Shown: in pieces, positions 1 through 36,901 of the stretch
How the letters are laid out: every line of letters begins with the position of its first letter
Numbering within the stretch: the first letter of the stretch is position 1
Assembly: GCA_028874765.1 (NCBI GenBank)
Contig: JAPPIE010000099.1
Location: 35,117 to 78,915, forward strand
Source of the DNA: Gemmatimonadota bacterium
GTDB taxonomy: Bacteria; Latescibacterota; UBA2968
DNA: 43,799 bases
Direction of reading: 5' to 3'
Notes under the pieces: generated by a model
What the model saw: the letters and a program-made list of their open reading frames with translations, nothing else
Told to the model about the DNA's origin: nothing
The model's database searches: none
Translations under genes and position numbers: made by a program

Positions 1-551
1 CGCAGGTGTCCCAGATCTACAGAGTTCTCTGTGGTTTCCTGGGGATGGCCGCGGAACCGGAGTATGTTGAATCCCAGTTCACCCCACTCTTGTCCAGTGG
101 TTGGCTCGGCTGGCAAATCCCACTGCGACGGCCGACCGCCGCTCCCGAACCAGGCGAAGACCATGCCGAGAATCTCTCTGGTCTCATATACTTTCAGTCT
201 CGCGGCTCTGGGTGCCGGGGCGTTCGGCGTCGCAACGCATTGGCCGGTCGTATCGTACTCAAACCCGTGAAACGGACAAACGAGGCGCCCATTGCATATC
301 TTCCCACCGACCTCCGGCCCCAGATGCGAGCCCAGATGTGGGCATACCGCGTCGGCCACGCAGACATGGCCTGCATCGTCGCACCAGACAACGATTTCTT
401 CGCCCAGCCACGTCTTCTCAATCAGTTTTTCTCGCAAAATGGAATCGCGGCTTGCGACGAAATACCACCCTTCGGGGAACGGCGATAACTCATCAGCGCC
501 GGTCATGACTGGTCGATTAGTTCGTAAGTCCGCAGACTCTATCAAAGACAT
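1..551 (-). CDS. Rieske [2Fe-2S] aromatic-ring/steroid-type oxygenase, alpha subunit (partial, 3' end off window)
   Basis: Translating the minus strand from ATG at 551 gives an open frame to the window edge with no stop (183 full codons). It carries the Rieske cluster ligands C70-P-H72 and C92-P-F-H95 in the CPHLGSHLG and CPFHGF contexts, preceded by the usual FPEGWY N-terminal motif. The stretch HPQETTENSVD (residues about 169-179), with N176, D179 and H182, matches the start of the mononuclear-iron catalytic domain of the KshA/VanA-like oxygenase family. Such enzymes hydroxylate or demethylate aromatic or steroid-like substrates with electrons from a separate reductase; the substrate is unknown here. 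AAGGATGAG upstream supports the start at 551; an internal ATG at 504 is an alternative. The gene lies 123 bases downstream of lptD on the same strand. Bases 1-240 are about 60 % GC by hand count, higher than a sampled part of lptD (27 of 60 at 2041-2100). The remaining catalytic domain lies outside the window. Confidence 0.9.
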   Translation of the reverse strand, partial: MSLIESADLRTNRPVMTGADELSPFPEGWYFVASRDSILREKLIEKTWLGEEIVVWCDDAGHVCVADAVCPHLGSHLGPEVGGKICNGRLVCPFHGFEYDTTGQCVATPNAPAPRAARLKVYETREILGMVFAWFGSGGRPSQWDLPAEPTTGQEWGELGFNILRFRGHPQETTENSVDLGHL

Positions 552-674
552 AAAGGTCTCATCCTTATGAGTTTCCCAAAGGCACCCTGAACAGCGCCGA
601 TTTCACGAGATATTCCCATACAAAATCGCCAAAATCTATAAGCCATTTATGCCAGGTGGACAAGGTGAAAGATT

Positions 675-13855: not shown

Positions 13856-14878
13856 GTGCCTGCCCACCCCATATTTTTAGATATGAATGACATCCCATTC
13901 CTGGACAGAAACCGGGCAGACCAGTATTTTTTAAATACCCTTGAGATACTCCAGGCCGAAAGCCGCAATCCATCGGTAGTTATGGAGGTATTTCCCAATG
14001 CCGACGGCCTCTTGTGCGGCATCCGAGAGGTCCTGGATATTTTGCGCGAGACATTGCCTGAAAATACAGAGGTCTGGTCGCTGGATGAAGGATCGGCAAT
14101 GGCGCGCAAAGAAGTGGTACTGCGCCTTCACGCAGATTACTGCGCCGTCGGAATTTTTGAAACGGCGCTACTGGGCACGCTCGCGCATGGTAGCGGCTGG
14201 GCCACTGCGGCGCGAGCCTGTGTAGAAGCTGCGGGAGAGATACCCGTGATCAGTTTTGGCGCACGGCACGTACATCCCGCCGTATCAGACCGCATGGAAT
14301 ACGCCGCATTAATCGGAGGATGTGTTGGCTGTGCAACACCAGCAGGTGCTGCCCTATCCGATCAAAAAGCATCGGGCACCATGCCACACGCTCTGATGTT
14401 GATTTACGGCGATACAGTAGCCGCTACCCGGGCTTTTGATACCCACATGCCCGATTCCGTGCGGCGTGTTGTACTGGTAGATACCTTTCGCGACGAAGCC
14501 GAAGAAAGCGTGCGCGTCGCGCGTGCAATGGCCGGGCGATTGTGGGGCGTACGCCTGGATACACCCTCGGAATTGGGTGGCGTCACACCCGATCTGGTCT
14601 GGCGCGTACGCAGAGCATTGGATAGCGCGGGTTTTGACCAGGTGGGTATTTTTATAAGTGGTGGGTTAACGCCCGAGCGGATTTCAGAATTTGTGCGGTT
14701 GAAGTGTCCGATCGTCGGTTTTGGCGTGGGCAGTGCAATCAGCGGCGCATCGCCAATTGATTTTACGGCAGATATTAAACAAATTGATGGCAAACCCATC
14801 GCCAAACGCGGTCGCAAAGCGGGTATCCAGAATAACCCGAGGCTTAAAAAAAATCGTCTCTTGTGGAGTGAAAATTGA
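13856..14878 (+). CDS. Nicotinate phosphoribosyltransferase-like protein
   Basis: The 340-residue protein resembles the archaeal/bacterial type II nicotinate phosphoribosyltransferases. It has an N-terminal beta region with KEVVLRLHADYCAVGIFETALLG, a helix with ARACVEAAGEIPVISFGARHVHPA, a GTMPHAL strand and the phosphate-binding end of a beta/alpha barrel (RLDTPSELGG, FISGGLTPERI, GFGVGSAI). The family joins nicotinate and PRPP to nicotinate mononucleotide in NAD salvage. A GTG start at 13856 with AGAGG at 13841-13845 fits best; an ATG at 13883 lacks a ribosome site. The stop overlaps the TTG of moaD. Product NaMN feeds NaAD, which LarB uses, so proximity to larE may be meaningful; this is an inference. 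Confidence 0.85.
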   Translation: MPAHPIFLDMNDIPFLDRNRADQYFLNTLEILQAESRNPSVVMEVFPNADGLLCGIREVLDILRETLPENTEVWSLDEGSAMARKEVVLRLHADYCAVGIFETALLGTLAHGSGWATAARACVEAAGEIPVISFGARHVHPAVSDRMEYAALIGGCVGCATPAGAALSDQKASGTMPHALMLIYGDTVAATRAFDTHMPDSVRRVVLVDTFRDEAEESVRVARAMAGRLWGVRLDTPSELGGVTPDLVWRVRRALDSAGFDQVGIFISGGLTPERISEFVRLKCPIVGFGVGSAISGASPIDFTADIKQIDGKPIAKRGRKAGIQNNPRLKKNRLLWSEN

Positions 14879-15120
14879 ATATCAAAGTACTCTTTTTTGC
14901 ATCTTGTCGCGATTTGATTGGCACTGGTGAGCGGGAAATGACACTGCCAGACAGCGCGACAGTAACGGATTTGATATCAAAGCTCGCATTGGAACAGGCG
15001 CGGTTTATAGACATGGCACCGAGTTTGATGGTGTCGATCAATCAAGCGTATGTGGAACGGGATGCGGAACTTCAAGATGGCGATGAGGTGGCATTTATCC
15101 CGCCTGTGAGTGGCGGATAG
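14875..15120 (+). CDS. moaD: Molybdopterin synthase small subunit, MoaD
   Basis: The 81-residue ubiquitin-like protein starts IKVLFFASCRDLIG and ends FIPPVSGG. The terminal Gly-Gly is thiocarboxylated to carry the sulfur used to build molybdopterin. The only reasonable start is TTG at 14875, which overlaps the upstream stop as TTGA, with TGGAGTG a few bases before. It is followed by moaE after 32 bases. Confidence 0.93.
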   Translation: MNIKVLFFASCRDLIGTGEREMTLPDSATVTDLISKLALEQARFIDMAPSLMVSINQAYVERDAELQDGDEVAFIPPVSGG

Positions 15121-15152
15121 GTGCTACCTGTTCATCTTTAGAGGAAATTATT

Positions 15153-15596
15153 ATGGCTGGTGATGTGTATAAAATCCAGGATAAAAAAATAAAACCAGAT
15201 GCATTATACAATGCTGTACTGGCGGATTCGGACGGCGCAGTAACCACATTTGCGGGCGTGGTGCGAGACAATACAAAAGGGCGTGGAACCTCCTATCTCG
15301 TCTATGATGCGTATAGAGATATGGCTGAAAAGAAAATGCGGGAAATCGGAGATGAAATAAAAGAAAAGTGGGAGGTGGATTGCGTGGGAATACTGCACCG
15401 CGTAGGACGGTTGGAAATTGGGGAAATCAGCGTCCTAATTGCGGTTTCTTCTCCACATCGCAAAGCGTCTTTGAAAGCGTGTCACTACGCGATTGATCGC
15501 TTAAAACAGACCGTGCCGATTTGGAAAAAAGAAGTGTGGACAGACGGAGGTGAAGCCTGGATCGAGGGCGACCCATCTGCTCTGGCTTCGCGTTGA
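15153..15596 (+). CDS. moaE: Molybdopterin synthase catalytic subunit, MoaE
   Basis: The 147-residue protein has the MoaE fold landmarks TTFAGVVRDNTKG (about residues 30-42), a central GILHRVGRLEIGE, SPHRKASLKACHYAIDRLK and the catalytic-Lys region PIWKKEVWTDGG. Together with MoaD it inserts two sulfurs into precursor Z to form molybdopterin. AGAGGAAA precedes ATG 15153. The stop lies directly against the broken end of an RND-pump gene on the other strand, so the gene's original downstream neighbour was probably lost or displaced. Confidence 0.95.
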   Translation: MAGDVYKIQDKKIKPDALYNAVLADSDGAVTTFAGVVRDNTKGRGTSYLVYDAYRDMAEKKMREIGDEIKEKWEVDCVGILHRVGRLEIGEISVLIAVSSPHRKASLKACHYAIDRLKQTVPIWKKEVWTDGGEAWIEGDPSALASR

Positions 15597-15600
15597 GAAA

Positions 15601-15666
15601 TGCGATGCTGTTCCTGACCATATAAGCTATAGGACGTTCCCGTGCGGAGCCATCTTCCCGCTTCAT
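15601..15666 (-). pseudogene. 5' remnant of an RND efflux permease gene
   Basis: On the minus strand an ATG at 15666 overlaps the adaptor stop as ATGA. Its first 22 codons read like the start of an AcrB/MexB-type pump: KREDGSARERPIAYMVRNSIA, where family members continue ANLLM into TM1. After codon 22 the frame leaves the family and runs antisense into moaE, ending at 15427. This is what remains when an adaptor-pump operon is cut by deletion or by a rearrangement breakpoint at about 15597-15601. The identification rests on a short motif plus the adaptor-pump overlap. Confidence 0.65.
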
Positions 15667-16886
15667 GGATCACCTCTAACCGCAGTCTGCACCACCATGC
15701 CTTCAGTTGCAAACTGAATCCCGCCTATGACGACCGCCTGTCCGGCTTCCAGAGTGCCGGTTACGAACACCTTATCATCGGAACGCTGAAGGACGCGCAC
15801 CGGGACGATGGTCAATAGTTTGTCATCGCGCACTGCCCAAATCTCGTTGCCTGGCCTGAGTGCTGACCGTCGCAAGATGAAGTACCGGTCTGGGATGATT
15901 CCCTCAATTCGTACTTTCACAAACTTACCCACAAGAAGGGGCGGGCCAGGATCAGCATTTGCATTATCGCCATCTGCTCCAGCCCAAGTGCCGCTTGCAA
16001 AGGGGTCCGGAACGCGTACGATAGCGTTGATGGTACGCGTCTGTTCGTCCAGAGATGCCTCCGCTCGGTCCACGTAGCCCTCCCAGGCGTAGCTCCTTTC
16101 GCCGTATTCAGCAATGACGCGAGCCTTGACCCGCGTGTCTCCGTCGCCCGCTTCCAACTCCCATAGGCCGGGGATGAGAACCGCGTTGGCGTCGGACAGG
16201 GGAACCACTACTTCGACAGCGTCGGCCGCGTAAAGTCGCCCTACGCCCTGGCCAGCTACCGCGAATTGCCCCACATCTATCGACTCGATCCGCACGATTC
16301 CGCTGAAAGGCGCGCGTACCTCTGTGCGGGACAAAGCCAACTCAGCGTCAGCGAGCATGGCACTATCTCTGCCTAAAGCGGCTTGGGCAGCCTCGAGCTG
16401 AGGCTGCCGCAATACCAGAGGGCCGGCCTCCTTCAGCGACGTGCTATCCGCCTGGCGGCGTTTATATTGCGCGTACTCAGCGCGTGCGATCCGGGACTCT
16501 TCCTCCTCCTGGAGAAGTACTACCTGCTGTGCGGCCACGTTGGCCTGTGCCTGCTGAACTCTGTTGCGGTAGTCAGCGTCCTCAATGCGGAAGAGAACCT
16601 GCCCTTTGCGAACGCGTCCGCCACTCTGAAAGGCCGGATCCACCCAAACAACCTTACCATTGATTTCGGCAGCGACATCTATCTCTGCGACAGGTCGAAC
16701 CGTCCCGGCTCCGTACACGGGAATTGCACTGGCACCAGCCACTGCAGGAGTTGTGGTTACGAAGGGAATCTGGGTGGGAAGAGGCCGAAGTTCCGGCTCG
16801 GGCTTCAGCCAGACCATAAGGCTGGCAAAAAACAAGGATGTGAGAAGAACGGCACCGGCCATGAGTAAGTTTCTTCCTCGATTCAT
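15663..16886 (-). CDS. RND efflux membrane-fusion (adaptor) protein, HlyD/AcrA family
   Basis: The 407-residue protein has an N-terminal membrane anchor (LLMAGAVLLTSLFFASLMVW). A first lipoyl half (AEINGKVVWVDPAFQSGGRVRKGQVLFRIE), an alpha-helical hairpin of about 80 residues and a second lipoyl half (VRAPFSGIVRIESIDVGQFAVAG) follow, then a beta-barrel and a membrane-proximal domain. It would link an inner-membrane RND pump to an outer-membrane channel. No pump or TolC gene remains nearby apart from the 22-codon remnant, so it is probably orphaned. ATG 16886 follows AAAGAG. By hand count 16141-16260 is 81 of 120 GC, against 31 of 60 at 17461-17520 in the next gene, which suggests a different origin. 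Confidence 0.9.
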   Translation of the reverse strand: MNRGRNLLMAGAVLLTSLFFASLMVWLKPEPELRPLPTQIPFVTTTPAVAGASAIPVYGAGTVRPVAEIDVAAEINGKVVWVDPAFQSGGRVRKGQVLFRIEDADYRNRVQQAQANVAAQQVVLLQEEEESRIARAEYAQYKRRQADSTSLKEAGPLVLRQPQLEAAQAALGRDSAMLADAELALSRTEVRAPFSGIVRIESIDVGQFAVAGQGVGRLYAADAVEVVVPLSDANAVLIPGLWELEAGDGDTRVKARVIAEYGERSYAWEGYVDRAEASLDEQTRTINAIVRVPDPFASGTWAGADGDNANADPGPPLLVGKFVKVRIEGIIPDRYFILRRSALRPGNEIWAVRDDKLLTIVPVRVLQRSDDKVFVTGTLEAGQAVVIGGIQFATEGMVVQTAVRGDP

Positions 16887-16972
16887 CTCTTTTCTCTTTT
16901 CAGTACAGGCTGATCCGATGTGCGGCTTGGCATTGATAAGCCCCACAAAAAAGGGAATACTTATCCCCATAC

Positions 16973-17001
16973 ACCATAGCATACACTTTTACAAAATGCA
17001 A
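16973..17001 (-). promoter_or_regulatory. Possible promoter for the adaptor gene
   Basis: On the minus strand TTGCAT (17001-16996), a 17-base spacer and TATGGT (16978-16973) lie about 90 bases before ATG 16886. The surrounding 16887-17044 holds no gene. Confidence 0.35.
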
Positions 17002-17044
17002 GAATTTTTAAATTTGATTAGTATTTAGAATATCTTGAGGTTTT

Positions 17045-18472
17045 TTATAGTTTTTGCAATGCGGTGTGGAAGGTCCAGAGACGCCATTGGGCATTGTCGA
17101 AATTTGAAAGTTTGATGCGTATTTCCGAAGGCCCAATGGGAAGTTCACATGGAATATGGTCAATGGCGAATCCATTATCATGTTGCCCCGCGTGGATCTC
17201 TGCGCCATTGAGCCACACGCGGATCCAGTCGTCATACCCCACAACGAGAGTGTAAGCACCCGCTTCAGGCGGAGTGATCTGTCCCACCGCATAAGCGGAG
17301 ACATTGACGGGTTGGGTGCCCACATTGGTGCGTTTGCGACCTCGGAAGTAGCGCGTGAAATCGCACCAGCCGCGTTCTGAATCCGTTTGAATGGGCATAG
17401 AAAATGTGGCGGACGCACTCTCGCCCATGTAGATATCAAAATCAGCAGTGTGCGTGTTGGGCCAATCGACGATGGAATTCTCTGCCCATTCAGGCCGATT
17501 GAAATCCTCGCGTGTATTGCAGCGAAAAGGTCCCGCGATTTGCCATTGATCTGGCGTGAGAATAGCTGGCGGGTCAACGGGATTGACATAGGCGTAGATA
17601 ACGCTTTCCACATCATTCCCACGAGACCCGAAACGAATAATTGCCGAGTGATCAAACCATATTGGATCGGGACCAAAAAAGCGGTACATCACCCCTTCGT
17701 AACCAGAGCCTCCCGCTGTGTGTTCAGTGCTCCGATGAATGTGCGGCGCACCGACCCAGTCGGTTTGTACCTTCCATATCCCAAAGCTCATATTAAAAAT
17801 ATCCTCTCCACCAATGCCGCGCAGGACATGGGGATCGCTTTCCCCATCGAGTAACCACAGGTCTCCACCGGTATGATACCAAGCATCAGCGCGATCTCTT
17901 ACGACCACGCCTTTGACCATGCCCGCGATAAACCCATTGCCCGAATAGTCAGCCATCAGCATACTACCCAGCGATTGAGCGGGATATTCGCCTCGGTGCG
18001 TGACATGGAGGCGCAATGGGGTTAATTCGGTATTGTCATACGACGACCAGTCGGCCATAAACCAGAGCGGAATAGCGCGACCACTATTATTCGTGATTTC
18101 GAGACGCAGCGATTTGAAAGGGATGGGCAAATAACAATTGAGCGCGTTTTTGGGAAGGATTTTGATAGCCGCGCTATCAATGGGATAAATATCGTGTTCA
18201 AAGAGAATGGCAAAAAAACGAGCGATGGGGAGATCGACAGTGGGATCGTCCTCCCCATCGCAATAGAGGCGGAGTTGCAAATCGTGGATGGGATCGCGCG
18301 CATCGCCTTCGCGCTTATACCCATAAGTGAGCCACCAGTGATGGATGCACCCTGGACCTTCTTCGTCAAAGAGAACTGCCGTTTCACCAGATGCAACATT
18401 CGGACGACGAGTAACGCGCTGGCTTTTGCCGCGAATGGGCAATTCGAGCTCTGCGTGAAAAAGGCGATTCAT
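17045..18472 (-). CDS. DUF2961 / GH172-family protein
   Basis: The protein of about 475 residues has the DUF2961 signature EGPGCIHHWWLTYGY near residue 40, PIARFFAILFEHD, and long beta-rich stretches with MADYSGNGFIAGM and YRFFGPDPIWF. A C-terminal beta-sandwich (about 380-475: GQITPPEAGAYTLVVGYDDWIRVWLNGAEI) looks like a PA14/carbohydrate-binding module. GH172 members act on alpha-D-fructofuranosides and related arabinofuranosides; most are uncharacterised. There is no signal peptide, so it is probably cytoplasmic. ATG 18472 is chosen. A TTG at 18487 overlaps the stop of the upstream small gene as TTGA and is a real alternative. The gene is third in a minus-strand nhaC, small protein, GH172 run. 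Confidence 0.85.
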   Translation of the reverse strand: MNRLFHAELELPIRGKSQRVTRRPNVASGETAVLFDEEGPGCIHHWWLTYGYKREGDARDPIHDLQLRLYCDGEDDPTVDLPIARFFAILFEHDIYPIDSAAIKILPKNALNCYLPIPFKSLRLEITNNSGRAIPLWFMADWSSYDNTELTPLRLHVTHRGEYPAQSLGSMLMADYSGNGFIAGMVKGVVVRDRADAWYHTGGDLWLLDGESDPHVLRGIGGEDIFNMSFGIWKVQTDWVGAPHIHRSTEHTAGGSGYEGVMYRFFGPDPIWFDHSAIIRFGSRGNDVESVIYAYVNPVDPPAILTPDQWQIAGPFRCNTREDFNRPEWAENSIVDWPNTHTADFDIYMGESASATFSMPIQTDSERGWCDFTRYFRGRKRTNVGTQPVNVSAYAVGQITPPEAGAYTLVVGYDDWIRVWLNGAEIHAGQHDNGFAIDHIPCELPIGPSEIRIKLSNFDNAQWRLWTFHTALQKL

Positions 18473-18483
18473 CACTGAATTTT

Positions 18484-18576
18484 TCAATCAGATTTGTGTT
18501 CAGAAGAAATAACAATAAAACCAATGATGAACAAAGTCACTATAAATGTCATAAACAGCATCATTCCAACAGGCAT
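18484..18576 (-). CDS. 30-residue single-span membrane protein
   Basis: ATG 18576 is preceded at 6 bases by a strong Shine-Dalgarno sequence (AAAGGAGA, minus strand, 18590-18583). The 30-residue product is almost all hydrophobic (PVGMMLFMTFIVTLFIIGF and on), with a short charged tail SSEHKSD. It begins 37 bases after the nhaC stop and ends where the GH172 reading frame begins. I recognise no family. Size and form recall small transporter subunits such as MetS, but no sequence match can be claimed. It may be an accessory of the NhaC antiporter. Confidence 0.6.
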   Translation of the reverse strand: MPVGMMLFMTFIVTLFIIGFIVISSEHKSD

Positions 18577-18613
18577 TATGTGTCTCCTTTCGGTGATAAT
18601 TATGGAGAATCCA

Positions 18614-27593: not shown

Positions 27594-28270
27594 TGCGTAG
27601 AATACACCACAGGCGTAGCCTGCATACCTTTCTCGCTATTCTCAGTATTTTACTTTACACGGGAACTGTACAGGCAGATACGCGCGGCTCAGAGGTAGTT
27701 GCGAAATTGCAAAAAAAATTTGCGGATCTCGAGACGCTTTCCGCTCACTTTGTCAAGCAACACTACTGGCGCGTGATGGACCAGCATCAAGAAGTCAAAG
27801 GCAAGTTGCTGGTTCAGCGCCCCGATCAGTTTCGAATGGATTCGGATGTACAGGTAGTGGTGAGCGATGGCAAAACCGTGTGGCATTACGCGCCTGCCAA
27901 TGCTCAGGTGCTGGTGAGCGATTACACTGCGATGGAAAATGATCGAAACTATGAGAAATTGTTATTTGATCTGATTTTTTGGGGCGGGTACGACGAAAAT
28001 TATGTGCCCGTTTATATGGGCGAAGAAAAGATACATCGCAAAACGTGTTACGCGGTTGATCTATTGGCAAAAAAAGAAGATACGTATATCCATAAAATTC
28101 GCATTTGGATAGACAAACGCCTCTATCTGGTACGGCAGGTAGAGTATCGCAATATTCACGAAGATGTGACAACATTTGTGTTGTCGGATTTGAAGGTCAA
28201 TAAAAAAGCCAAGCCCGATCAATTTACATTTCACGTACCCAGCGGGGTGGAATTGATCGATTTGCGCTGA
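27590..28270 (+). CDS. lolA: Outer-membrane lipoprotein carrier LolA-like protein
   Basis: The 226-residue protein has a signal peptide (HTFLAILSILLYTG, cleavage near VQA-D). A LolA-type half-barrel follows: VVAKLQKKFADLETLSAHFVKQ, KGKLLVQRPDQFRMDS, VVVSDGKTVWHYAP, FDLIFWGG and IDKRLYLVRQVEY. LolA carries lipoproteins from the LolCDE complex through the periplasm to the outer membrane. The start overlaps the ftsK stop by four bases (ATGA); an ATG at 27593 is also possible. lolD lies 2.8 kb downstream, but no lolC/E or lolB gene is present. Confidence 0.85.
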   Translation: MMRRIHHRRSLHTFLAILSILLYTGTVQADTRGSEVVAKLQKKFADLETLSAHFVKQHYWRVMDQHQEVKGKLLVQRPDQFRMDSDVQVVVSDGKTVWHYAPANAQVLVSDYTAMENDRNYEKLLFDLIFWGGYDENYVPVYMGEEKIHRKTCYAVDLLAKKEDTYIHKIRIWIDKRLYLVRQVEYRNIHEDVTTFVLSDLKVNKKAKPDQFTFHVPSGVELIDLR

Positions 28271-34606: not shown

Positions 34607-36901
34607 GTGAAAAGGTTTTGTACATACAATTTTTTGGTCCTCATTGTACTATTGGGCGGGCGCACGGGCGCACAAGAAGGCCCGGTGATTCAGGAGATCC
34701 GCATTCGAGGCAATGATTGGGTCGAGATTTCTTTTATCGAATCTCAAAGTGGCTTATTCAAAGGACAGAATCTGGTAGAAGGCGAAGCCGCGCGGGTGAT
34801 TCGCAATCTTTATAAAAGCGGTCTGTTTTCCGACATAAAAATCTCTATAGATAAGGTGCCAGAGGGTGTGGCTGTTATTATTGATTTGAAAGCCGTGCCG
34901 CGTTTGGGTGAGGTGATCTTTAAGGGCAATCGCGCAATAAAGGATAAGACACTAAAGCGCGAGTCGAAATTGACTGAAGGCCAGTTAATAAAGCATCGAG
35001 AAAAAAAGAGAGCGGTCAACAAGCTGGTCGCGCTCTATCGCAAAAAAGGCTATTTGCTCGCCTCAGTAGATGTACAAGAAGAGGCGGTTGATAAAGATGG
35101 GCGATTGCCACTGACCTTTGAAATTCACGAGGGCGAAAAGGTCAATTTGAAAAAGATTCGTTTTCACGGCAATACGGCATTGACCGGGAAGCAACTGCGC
35201 AAACAAATGAAAGAGACCAAACAGGATGGCTGGTGGTTTGGGGGAGGCAAATACAGCGAGGAGACTTATCCCGACGACAAAGAATTGGTCTTGGCCTTTT
35301 ACCGGCAAAAAGGATATCGGGAAGCGGCAATTGTATCCGATAGCTTGTCCTATGGCCCTGTGAAAAAAAATATGTACCTCGATATCACGATCGAAGAAGG
35401 GCCGCTTTATCGCTTTGGCGCAGTGAGCTGGTCGGGCAATGAGAAAATCACCGATGCCGGTTTTTCTCACTTTATTGTAGTCGATTCAGGCGCGGTCTAT
35501 AACGAAGAGCGCGTCTTAAAATCGCGAGAGCAATTGCAAAATGCCTATATGGACATCGGGCATATTGGCGCGCAAGTTTTTCCACAACAAAAACCCATTG
35601 AAGGTCACGTCGTCGATGTGCATTTTGACGTAGTCGAAAAAGATCCGTGGACAATTCGCAAAATTTTGATTACGGGCAATACCAAAACCAAAGACCGCGT
35701 GATTCGACGCGAATTGCGCGTGCGGCCAGGCGATACGTTTAGCCGCGCACTTTTGGAACGCAGCGTGCGCGAAGTCATGCAACTCAACTTTTTCACCAAT
35801 GTGTTGCCCGAACCTATCGCGGTAGAAGAAACATCAGAGATTGACCTCGAGTTTACCATAGAAGAAAAGTCAACGGGTACGGCGTCTATTGGGGCGGGGT
35901 ATAGCGAACGCGACAAGCTCATTGGCACCATTGGGTTGCAAATTCCCAATTTTAGAGGCAATGGACAGCAGCTTGATTTCCAGTGGGAGTTTGGATCGCG
36001 CCGCGAAACCTTCAGCATTGGATTTACCGAACCGTGGTTCCGCAACACCCCCACGAGTATATCGGCATCGCTGTTCCGAAGCACCATACGACTGGCAACT
36101 TATGGTGTAGCGGACTTTGACCAGCGCACAGAAGGCGGTGCATTTCGCCTCGGACGCCGACTCCGCTGGCCCGATTATTCGCGCATTTCTGGAGGGTATC
36201 GCATCGAGAAGGTTGCTTTTATCAATTTTTCCGACAGTACAGATGTAAACAATCCCTTTTACCAGGACAATATAACCAGCAGTATCAGCGCGAACTTGAC
36301 CCGCGACAGCCGTGATTTGCCGATTTTTCCCACATCTGGAGGCGTAATTTCCTATTCGCCCGCATTGGCTGGCGGATTTTTGGGCGGTAATAGAGATTTT
36401 CACAAGCACGATATTGTCACGAGCTTTTACTTTCCCATATTCTGGCGATTGGCCTTAAATGTGCGGTCACAATTGGGCTTTGTCGCCAGTTATGGCACCG
36501 AGCGTGTCCCATATCAGGAATTGTATCTGCCGGGTGGCGTTGACATTTTTGAAGGCACCATGTTGCGGGGTTATCCCGACCGCTCAATTGGCCCTCGTAA
36601 TATTGGAGGGGAGCCAACTGGGGGTGTCGCGCAATTGTTGTTCAACGCAGAGATCAGTATTCCCATTGTGCCCAATCAGTTTTACGGCCTCATTTTTGCC
36701 GATGCGGGTAATGCCTGGGACAATCTGGATCGGATCAGCCTGACAGATATGCGCCGATCGGCCGGTTTTGGCATTCGGATTGTAGCACCTGTAGTGGGTA
36801 TTATGGGATTTGATTTTGCATGGGGATTTGACCGTCGGCGTGTCGATGGTCAGTCCGTACAGATGATGACGCATTTCCAATTCGGTCCGCAATTTTATTA
36901 G
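34607..36901 (+). CDS. bamA: Outer-membrane protein assembly factor BamA
   Basis: The 764-residue protein has a signal peptide (FLVLIVLLGG then RTGAQ) and five POTRA domains (about 25-420: VIQEIRIRGNDW, LGEVIFKGNRAI, NLKKIRFHGNTAL, RFGAVSWSGNEKI, IRKILITGNTKT). A 16-stranded Omp85 barrel follows, with YLPGGVDIFEGTMLRGYPDR, and the C-terminus is FQFGPQFY with a terminal aromatic residue. BamA folds and inserts outer-membrane proteins. GTG 34607 has a weak ribosome site but gives a proper signal peptide. skp and fabZ follow, as in many diderms. Confidence 0.96.
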   Translation: MKRFCTYNFLVLIVLLGGRTGAQEGPVIQEIRIRGNDWVEISFIESQSGLFKGQNLVEGEAARVIRNLYKSGLFSDIKISIDKVPEGVAVIIDLKAVPRLGEVIFKGNRAIKDKTLKRESKLTEGQLIKHREKKRAVNKLVALYRKKGYLLASVDVQEEAVDKDGRLPLTFEIHEGEKVNLKKIRFHGNTALTGKQLRKQMKETKQDGWWFGGGKYSEETYPDDKELVLAFYRQKGYREAAIVSDSLSYGPVKKNMYLDITIEEGPLYRFGAVSWSGNEKITDAGFSHFIVVDSGAVYNEERVLKSREQLQNAYMDIGHIGAQVFPQQKPIEGHVVDVHFDVVEKDPWTIRKILITGNTKTKDRVIRRELRVRPGDTFSRALLERSVREVMQLNFFTNVLPEPIAVEETSEIDLEFTIEEKSTGTASIGAGYSERDKLIGTIGLQIPNFRGNGQQLDFQWEFGSRRETFSIGFTEPWFRNTPTSISASLFRSTIRLATYGVADFDQRTEGGAFRLGRRLRWPDYSRISGGYRIEKVAFINFSDSTDVNNPFYQDNITSSISANLTRDSRDLPIFPTSGGVISYSPALAGGFLGGNRDFHKHDIVTSFYFPIFWRLALNVRSQLGFVASYGTERVPYQELYLPGGVDIFEGTMLRGYPDRSIGPRNIGGEPTGGVAQLLFNAEISIPIVPNQFYGLIFADAGNAWDNLDRISLTDMRRSAGFGIRIVAPVVGIMGFDFAWGFDRRRVDGQSVQMMTHFQFGPQFY

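Follow-up and report, generated by a model that had tools for sequence, protein, structure and literature searches.

RND tripartite efflux operons such as MdtAB, MexAB and TriABC combine a periplasmic adaptor, of the kind described by the TIGR01730 and HlyD_3 models, with an HAE-1/AcrB-type RND partner that is described by PF00873. In addition, an RND-type sterol transporter, BstA, has been reported from Methylococcus (PMC10942540), horizontally moving steroid gene clusters have been found in sponge bacteria (PMC9531527), and bacterial sterol methyltransferases have been described (PMC10070321); a word search of the latter two, the sponge papers, returned no mention of RND. The locus considered here lies within a window of 43,799 nucleotides (C381:35117-78915, such that window base 1 is base 35117 of scaffold C381) from a 4.9-Mb metagenome-assembled genome of a sponge-type bacterium, and contains an intact adaptor gene that is followed by only the beginning of a pump gene. 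An earlier sequence-only reading of that window had concluded that the pump gene was cut to about 22 codons at the boundary with moaE, and had proposed a deletion, a translocation or an assembly junction at that point.

A pump-gene scar behind moaE

The sequence-only reading was correct in recognizing, behind the adaptor and in an ATGA-overlapping frame, the N-terminus of an RND protein: on the minus strand, an ATG at 15666-15664 overlaps the adaptor stop codon (TGA, 15665-15663), and alignment to the RND starts of related genomes delimits a remnant of 22 codons, termed here the scar, at 15601..15666. The translation of the scar frame, MKREDGSARERPIAYMVRNSIA, ends at 15601, past which the frame reads FLNAKPEQ... 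(that is, antisense moaE) until a stop at 15427, such that the whole open frame starting at the scar ATG comprises 79 codons. The scar DNA is similar to the RND genes of three relatives (G003, G004 and G007), and that similarity ends at 15602, 4-6 bases away from a moaE stop codon that ends at 15596, which agrees with the earlier placement of the break. Because a single alignment of approximately 1.3 kb, at 74-82% identity, takes in the adaptor and the scar jointly, the scar corresponds to an RND homologue rather than to a chance resemblance. The scar lacks the Gly-Pro (two conserved codons) of a conserved GPIAYM start motif that the compared RND starts retain; the 22-codon frame displays no Pfam match, and the transmembrane and porter domains of PF00873 are absent. 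Comparison with related genomes, which the sequence-only reading had suggested, revealed no separate, conserved copy of the same 22-codon ORF in 10 other genomes of the genus. Most likely, this remnant is inert.

The left neighbour of the inserted DNA is an intact moaE gene (15153..15596, plus strand) for the large subunit of molybdopterin synthase, identified by comparison with the moaE genes of relatives (to most of which, within the genus, it is 94-97% identical at the amino acid level) and by NCBIfam MoaE models that match with scores below their curated cut-offs. The aligned moaE flanks and RND starts of those relatives place the left junction, where the moaE flank meets the scar, at 15597..15602, with the exact base uncertain by about 5. 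The right junction (17017..17040) looks like a moaE terminator of the relatives of which only the 3' arm and T-run remain, the 5' arm being missing, and is followed by a DUF2961/PA14 gene (17045..18487, minus strand). In six of the nine loci available from same-genus relatives (G001, G002, G004, G005, G007 and G008), the latter gene is the next one behind moaE, within approximately 60 bases and past a short terminator hairpin, while other DNA lies behind moaE in the remaining three (G006, G009 and G010); a search for moaE in G003 gave no match. None of the nine loci carries an adaptor after moaE.

The DNA between the junctions (15601 to approximately 17016) is therefore interpreted as an insertion of about 1.4 kb into the moaE terminator region, which comprises the scar, the intact adaptor and unmatched upstream DNA, and which also removed the 5' arm of the hairpin. 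Thus, the proposal of a deletion, translocation or assembly junction was sound insofar as a rearrangement junction does exist at that position, with translocation or insertion describing it best; it was incomplete in that a second junction, at approximately 17016, implies the insertion of a 1.4-kb piece with the whole adaptor, and an assembly junction is unlikely. No marks of a mobile element (target-site duplication, terminal or inverted repeats) were found beyond chance, the longest word shared between the junctions being 5 bases, and no transposase-like ORF was recognized in the segment. The interval from moaE to an NhaC-type antiporter gene (window 17045-18610 and its counterparts) varies among relatives, with DUF2961 missing in G006 and G010 and an extra 0.6-0.9 kb present in G002 and G008, and is regarded as a small insertion hot spot.

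The intact adaptor and the intact pump

The adaptor gene (15663..16886, minus strand) encodes an intact membrane fusion protein of 407 residues with an N-terminal hydrophobic segment, which matches TIGR01730 (RND_mfp) at 139.2 bits, against a cut-off of 94.9, and HlyD_3 as well. Its frame contains no stop codon, and comparison with four relatives that possess an intact adaptor gave dN/dS values of 0.22-0.29 at a dS of 0.47-0.53 (flanking and island-side genes of the same relatives gave a dS of 0.14-0.50), from which the gene is judged to be under purifying selection. A conserved leader with a ribosome site (AAAAGAGAAAAGAG; 16887..16914, minus strand) precedes it, and similarity to relatives ends at approximately 16914. 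Further upstream lies an A+T-richer stretch (16915..17016, minus strand, 38% G+C), on the minus strand of which no promoter consensus was found; a 126-base query from upstream of the adaptor had no match elsewhere in its own genome or in 59 related genomes. That stretch is a possible candidate for a new promoter region of the adaptor. The genome contains no other adaptor of the close family, the next best being 33% identical, and a DNA search revealed no second copy. The adaptor is 81% identical to the adaptors of relatives, as compared to 88-96% for the flanking genes. Faster evolution of a freed adaptor was considered as the source of that divergence and found no support, as its dN to Rhodothermales is 0.17 versus 0.18-0.20 for the relatives' intact adaptors.

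The same scaffold carries, outside the window and 19.5 kb before the scar, a complete RND gene of 1062 codons (C381:28062-31250) that matches PF00873 at 536 bits over profile positions 9-1019 of 1021. The claim of a pump gene cut to about 22 codons therefore did not hold, and a genome search for a displaced, startless RND fragment beginning with ANLLM, which the sequence-only reading had suggested, found none: two RND types used as queries recovered the intact gene only. That gene has its own GAGGA ribosome site and no adaptor in front of it, and is preceded by DNA that, as far as approximately position 28012 of the scaffold, resembles what lies between DTD and the adaptor gene in relatives, and then by about 50 bases that include the ribosome site. 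Because the RND gene is complete, with its own ribosome site and without an adaptor before it, the adaptor appears to have been detached from a pump, rather than a pump having been halved.

The RND gene belongs to an accessory island at C381:27900-35790, which is flanked by the DTD and LptD genes and lies for the most part outside the window. Behind the RND gene, the island encodes a GPP34-P450 fusion, a methyltransferase whose C-terminal domain is of the sterol-methyltransferase type, and a Rieske protein, the gene of which forms the end of the island within the window (1..673). The closed genome of one relative (G008) lacks the entire island, and DTD there lies directly against the LptD region. 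A search of the genome for an oxidosqualene/hopene cyclase (PF13243) found none, and a sterol-related role of the island is therefore a lead only. The island of G002 additionally has a 3-beta-HSD-like epimerase. In L111, the locus that covers the island at C381:28062-35700, the protein encoded at 14220-16316 combines two domains, Golgi phosphoprotein 3 (GPP34) and cytochrome P450, and homologous ORFs of similar length exist in several other loci. The island RND and P450 genes display 93-97% nucleotide identity to a Gemmatimonadetes-labelled MAG (L088), a likeness that suggests either a recent inter-phylum transfer or a mislabelled MAG.

In four relatives (G001, G002, G003 and G007) the adaptor gene immediately precedes the RND gene, to which it is ATGA-coupled, and has the DTD, maf and priA genes on its other side. 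A complete RND gene followed by a P450 gene is present in G002 and G007; the contigs of G001 and G003 end inside the RND gene, so that the operon is visible only that far. The segment behind moaE is 81% identical in nucleotide sequence to the adaptor and RND start of each of these four genomes, and 74% identical to those of G004, which retains the same gene order with a frameshifted adaptor. Because related species possess both genes adjacent to one another, the locus is best described as an operon that has been split, leaving a small scar, and not as a new kind of gene.

Origin of the split arrangement

The arrangement is probably explained by the splitting of an adaptor-pump operon, in which a segment of approximately 1.4 kb came to lie in inverted orientation at moaE, leaving the RND gene alone 19.5 kb away, the adaptor acting in trans and the scar inert. 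Illegitimate joining, which would involve neither a mobile element nor a target duplication, would have brought the adaptor to its position behind moaE; the RND gene, left beside its old upstream region, would be read from its own start; and expression of the adaptor would probably be driven by the stretch upstream of it or result from DUF2961 read-through. We infer that the adaptor may serve the island RND in trans because relatives encode the same type of adaptor directly before the same type of RND. A simple model of two inversions, the first of the entire segment and the second restoring everything except the adaptor, was also considered: while it fits the order and orientation of the genes, it predicts an RND gene minus its first 22 codons, and the actual gene possesses a different version of them, for which reason the model was rejected in its simple form. 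The adaptor gene of G004 (L037, G004:C29:85089-86266) is split between two frames, its RND gene being intact, and thus represents another RND with a doubtful adaptor. Elsewhere, two Acidobacteria loci (L097 and L102) have a P450-type gene within the approximately 4.7 kb that separate adaptor and RND, and in a Gemmatimonadetes locus (L096) the two are divergent; these arrangements may be regarded as precedents for loose coupling in this adaptor/RND family.

Phylogenetic trees bear upon which operon was the source. The adaptors of the genus, among which the one at moaE branches deepest, have two Rhodothermales sequences as their sister group in the adaptor tree, with supports of 100/99 and 97/96. 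In the RND tree, the genus falls into a different, well-supported clade with Gemmatimonadota, other Latescibacterota and Gammaproteobacteria, and the Rhodothermales RND lies far away. Because adaptor and RND thus fall into different clades, the relatives' operon looks like a hybrid, and the presence of a Rhodothermales-like adaptor beside RND genes of another clade suggests that the adaptor was exchanged at an earlier time, with the breakpoint close to the codons at the scar end; an alignment read by eye would place the change of type within approximately the first 20 RND codons, again near the scar end. Given its deep branching, and its 81% identity against 88-96% for the flanks, the adaptor may not be the one that formerly preceded the island RND.

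The same observations lend themselves to a second explanation, which is possible but unlikely: that a separately acquired Rhodothermales-type operon, with an adaptor followed by an RND gene, was inserted behind moaE and its RND gene was then deleted, while the resident RND independently lost its adaptor. Such an origin would accord with an adaptor that branches before all others of the genus, in a clade sister to Rhodothermales, and with a search that found no Rhodothermales-type RND remaining in the genome. The last scar codons (AGG AAC AGC ATC GCA) also look closer to a Rhodothermales RND than to the hybrid RND of the genus, with 4 mismatches out of 18 across codons 17-22 against one Rhodothermales sequence (L081) and 7-8 against G001, G002 and G007, by hand count. 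While these diagnostic bases lean weakly toward a second operon, they are very limited in number, and L082, the other Rhodothermales sequence, does not resemble the scar more than the hybrids do. Moreover, at least two independent losses would be required, and no other remnant, such as the outer-membrane channel gene that precedes the adaptor in L081 and L082, was observed at moaE; parsimony leans toward displacement of the adaptor from the resident operon.

A more speculative and rather doubtful extension is that the adaptor and first RND codons constitute an exchangeable module, such that recombination at the GPIAYM..AANLLM codons swaps adaptors between RND pumps, with this locus representing a free-standing copy; its setting would be the islands for lipid modification that spread horizontally among sponge bacteria.

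It is quite improbable that the 1.4-kb piece belongs to the island of a related strain and was misjoined into the moaE locus as an assembly chimera. The metagenome assembly comprises 474 contigs at 6% contamination, related strains may coexist, and the flanks diverge less than does the adaptor. Yet a chimera would need two false joins, each across only about 4-5 shared bases in a k=55-type graph and neither marked by N; the RND locus, independently of the junctions, shows a new leader and no adaptor; and the decayed scar and missing moaE terminator arm are unexpected from a clean misjoin. The scaffold does contain 100-N gaps, at C381:22389-22488 and 35017-35116, each flanked by an exact 55-base overlap typical of k=55 graph assembly, and neither is at a junction. 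The second lies between the RND and adaptor genes, directly before the window begins, and contigs of G002, G006 and G018 cross the equivalent place. As both junctions fall within unbroken sequence of such an assembly, an assembly error appears unlikely at either.

Finally, a role of the 22-codon frame as a small functional gene or as a leader for translational coupling, which its ATGA overlap and 79-codon open frame might suggest, is scarcely credible, given the lost Gly-Pro, the antisense moaE past codon 22, and the lack of both a Pfam match and a separate copy in any relative.

Comparison with known adaptor-pump systems

The locus illustrates that a seemingly broken pump gene can be the edge scar of a moved, intact partner gene, with the real pump located elsewhere, and that annotation based on gene neighbourhood would score such a pump as lost. 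The hybrid pairing of adaptor and RND across phyla that it documents might, if tested, provide natural evidence for adaptors serving non-cognate RND pumps. While the two proteins are of the same kinds as those of described tripartite efflux operons, the adaptor here is 19.5 kb from the pump on the opposite strand, rather than adjacent and co-directional, and carries a scar of a pump gene. The adaptor-RND-P450 operon of the four Candidatus Latescibacterota relatives shares the adaptor clade, RND clade and DTD-side flank, and differs in that its adaptor is directly before the RND gene rather than displaced. The Rhodothermales operon (JANQSQ010000283 and OX638295), in which an outer-membrane channel-like gene, an adaptor and an RND gene are found in that order, encodes an adaptor of the sister clade that is 72% identical to the one at moaE, but an RND that is only about 51-54% identical to that of the island.
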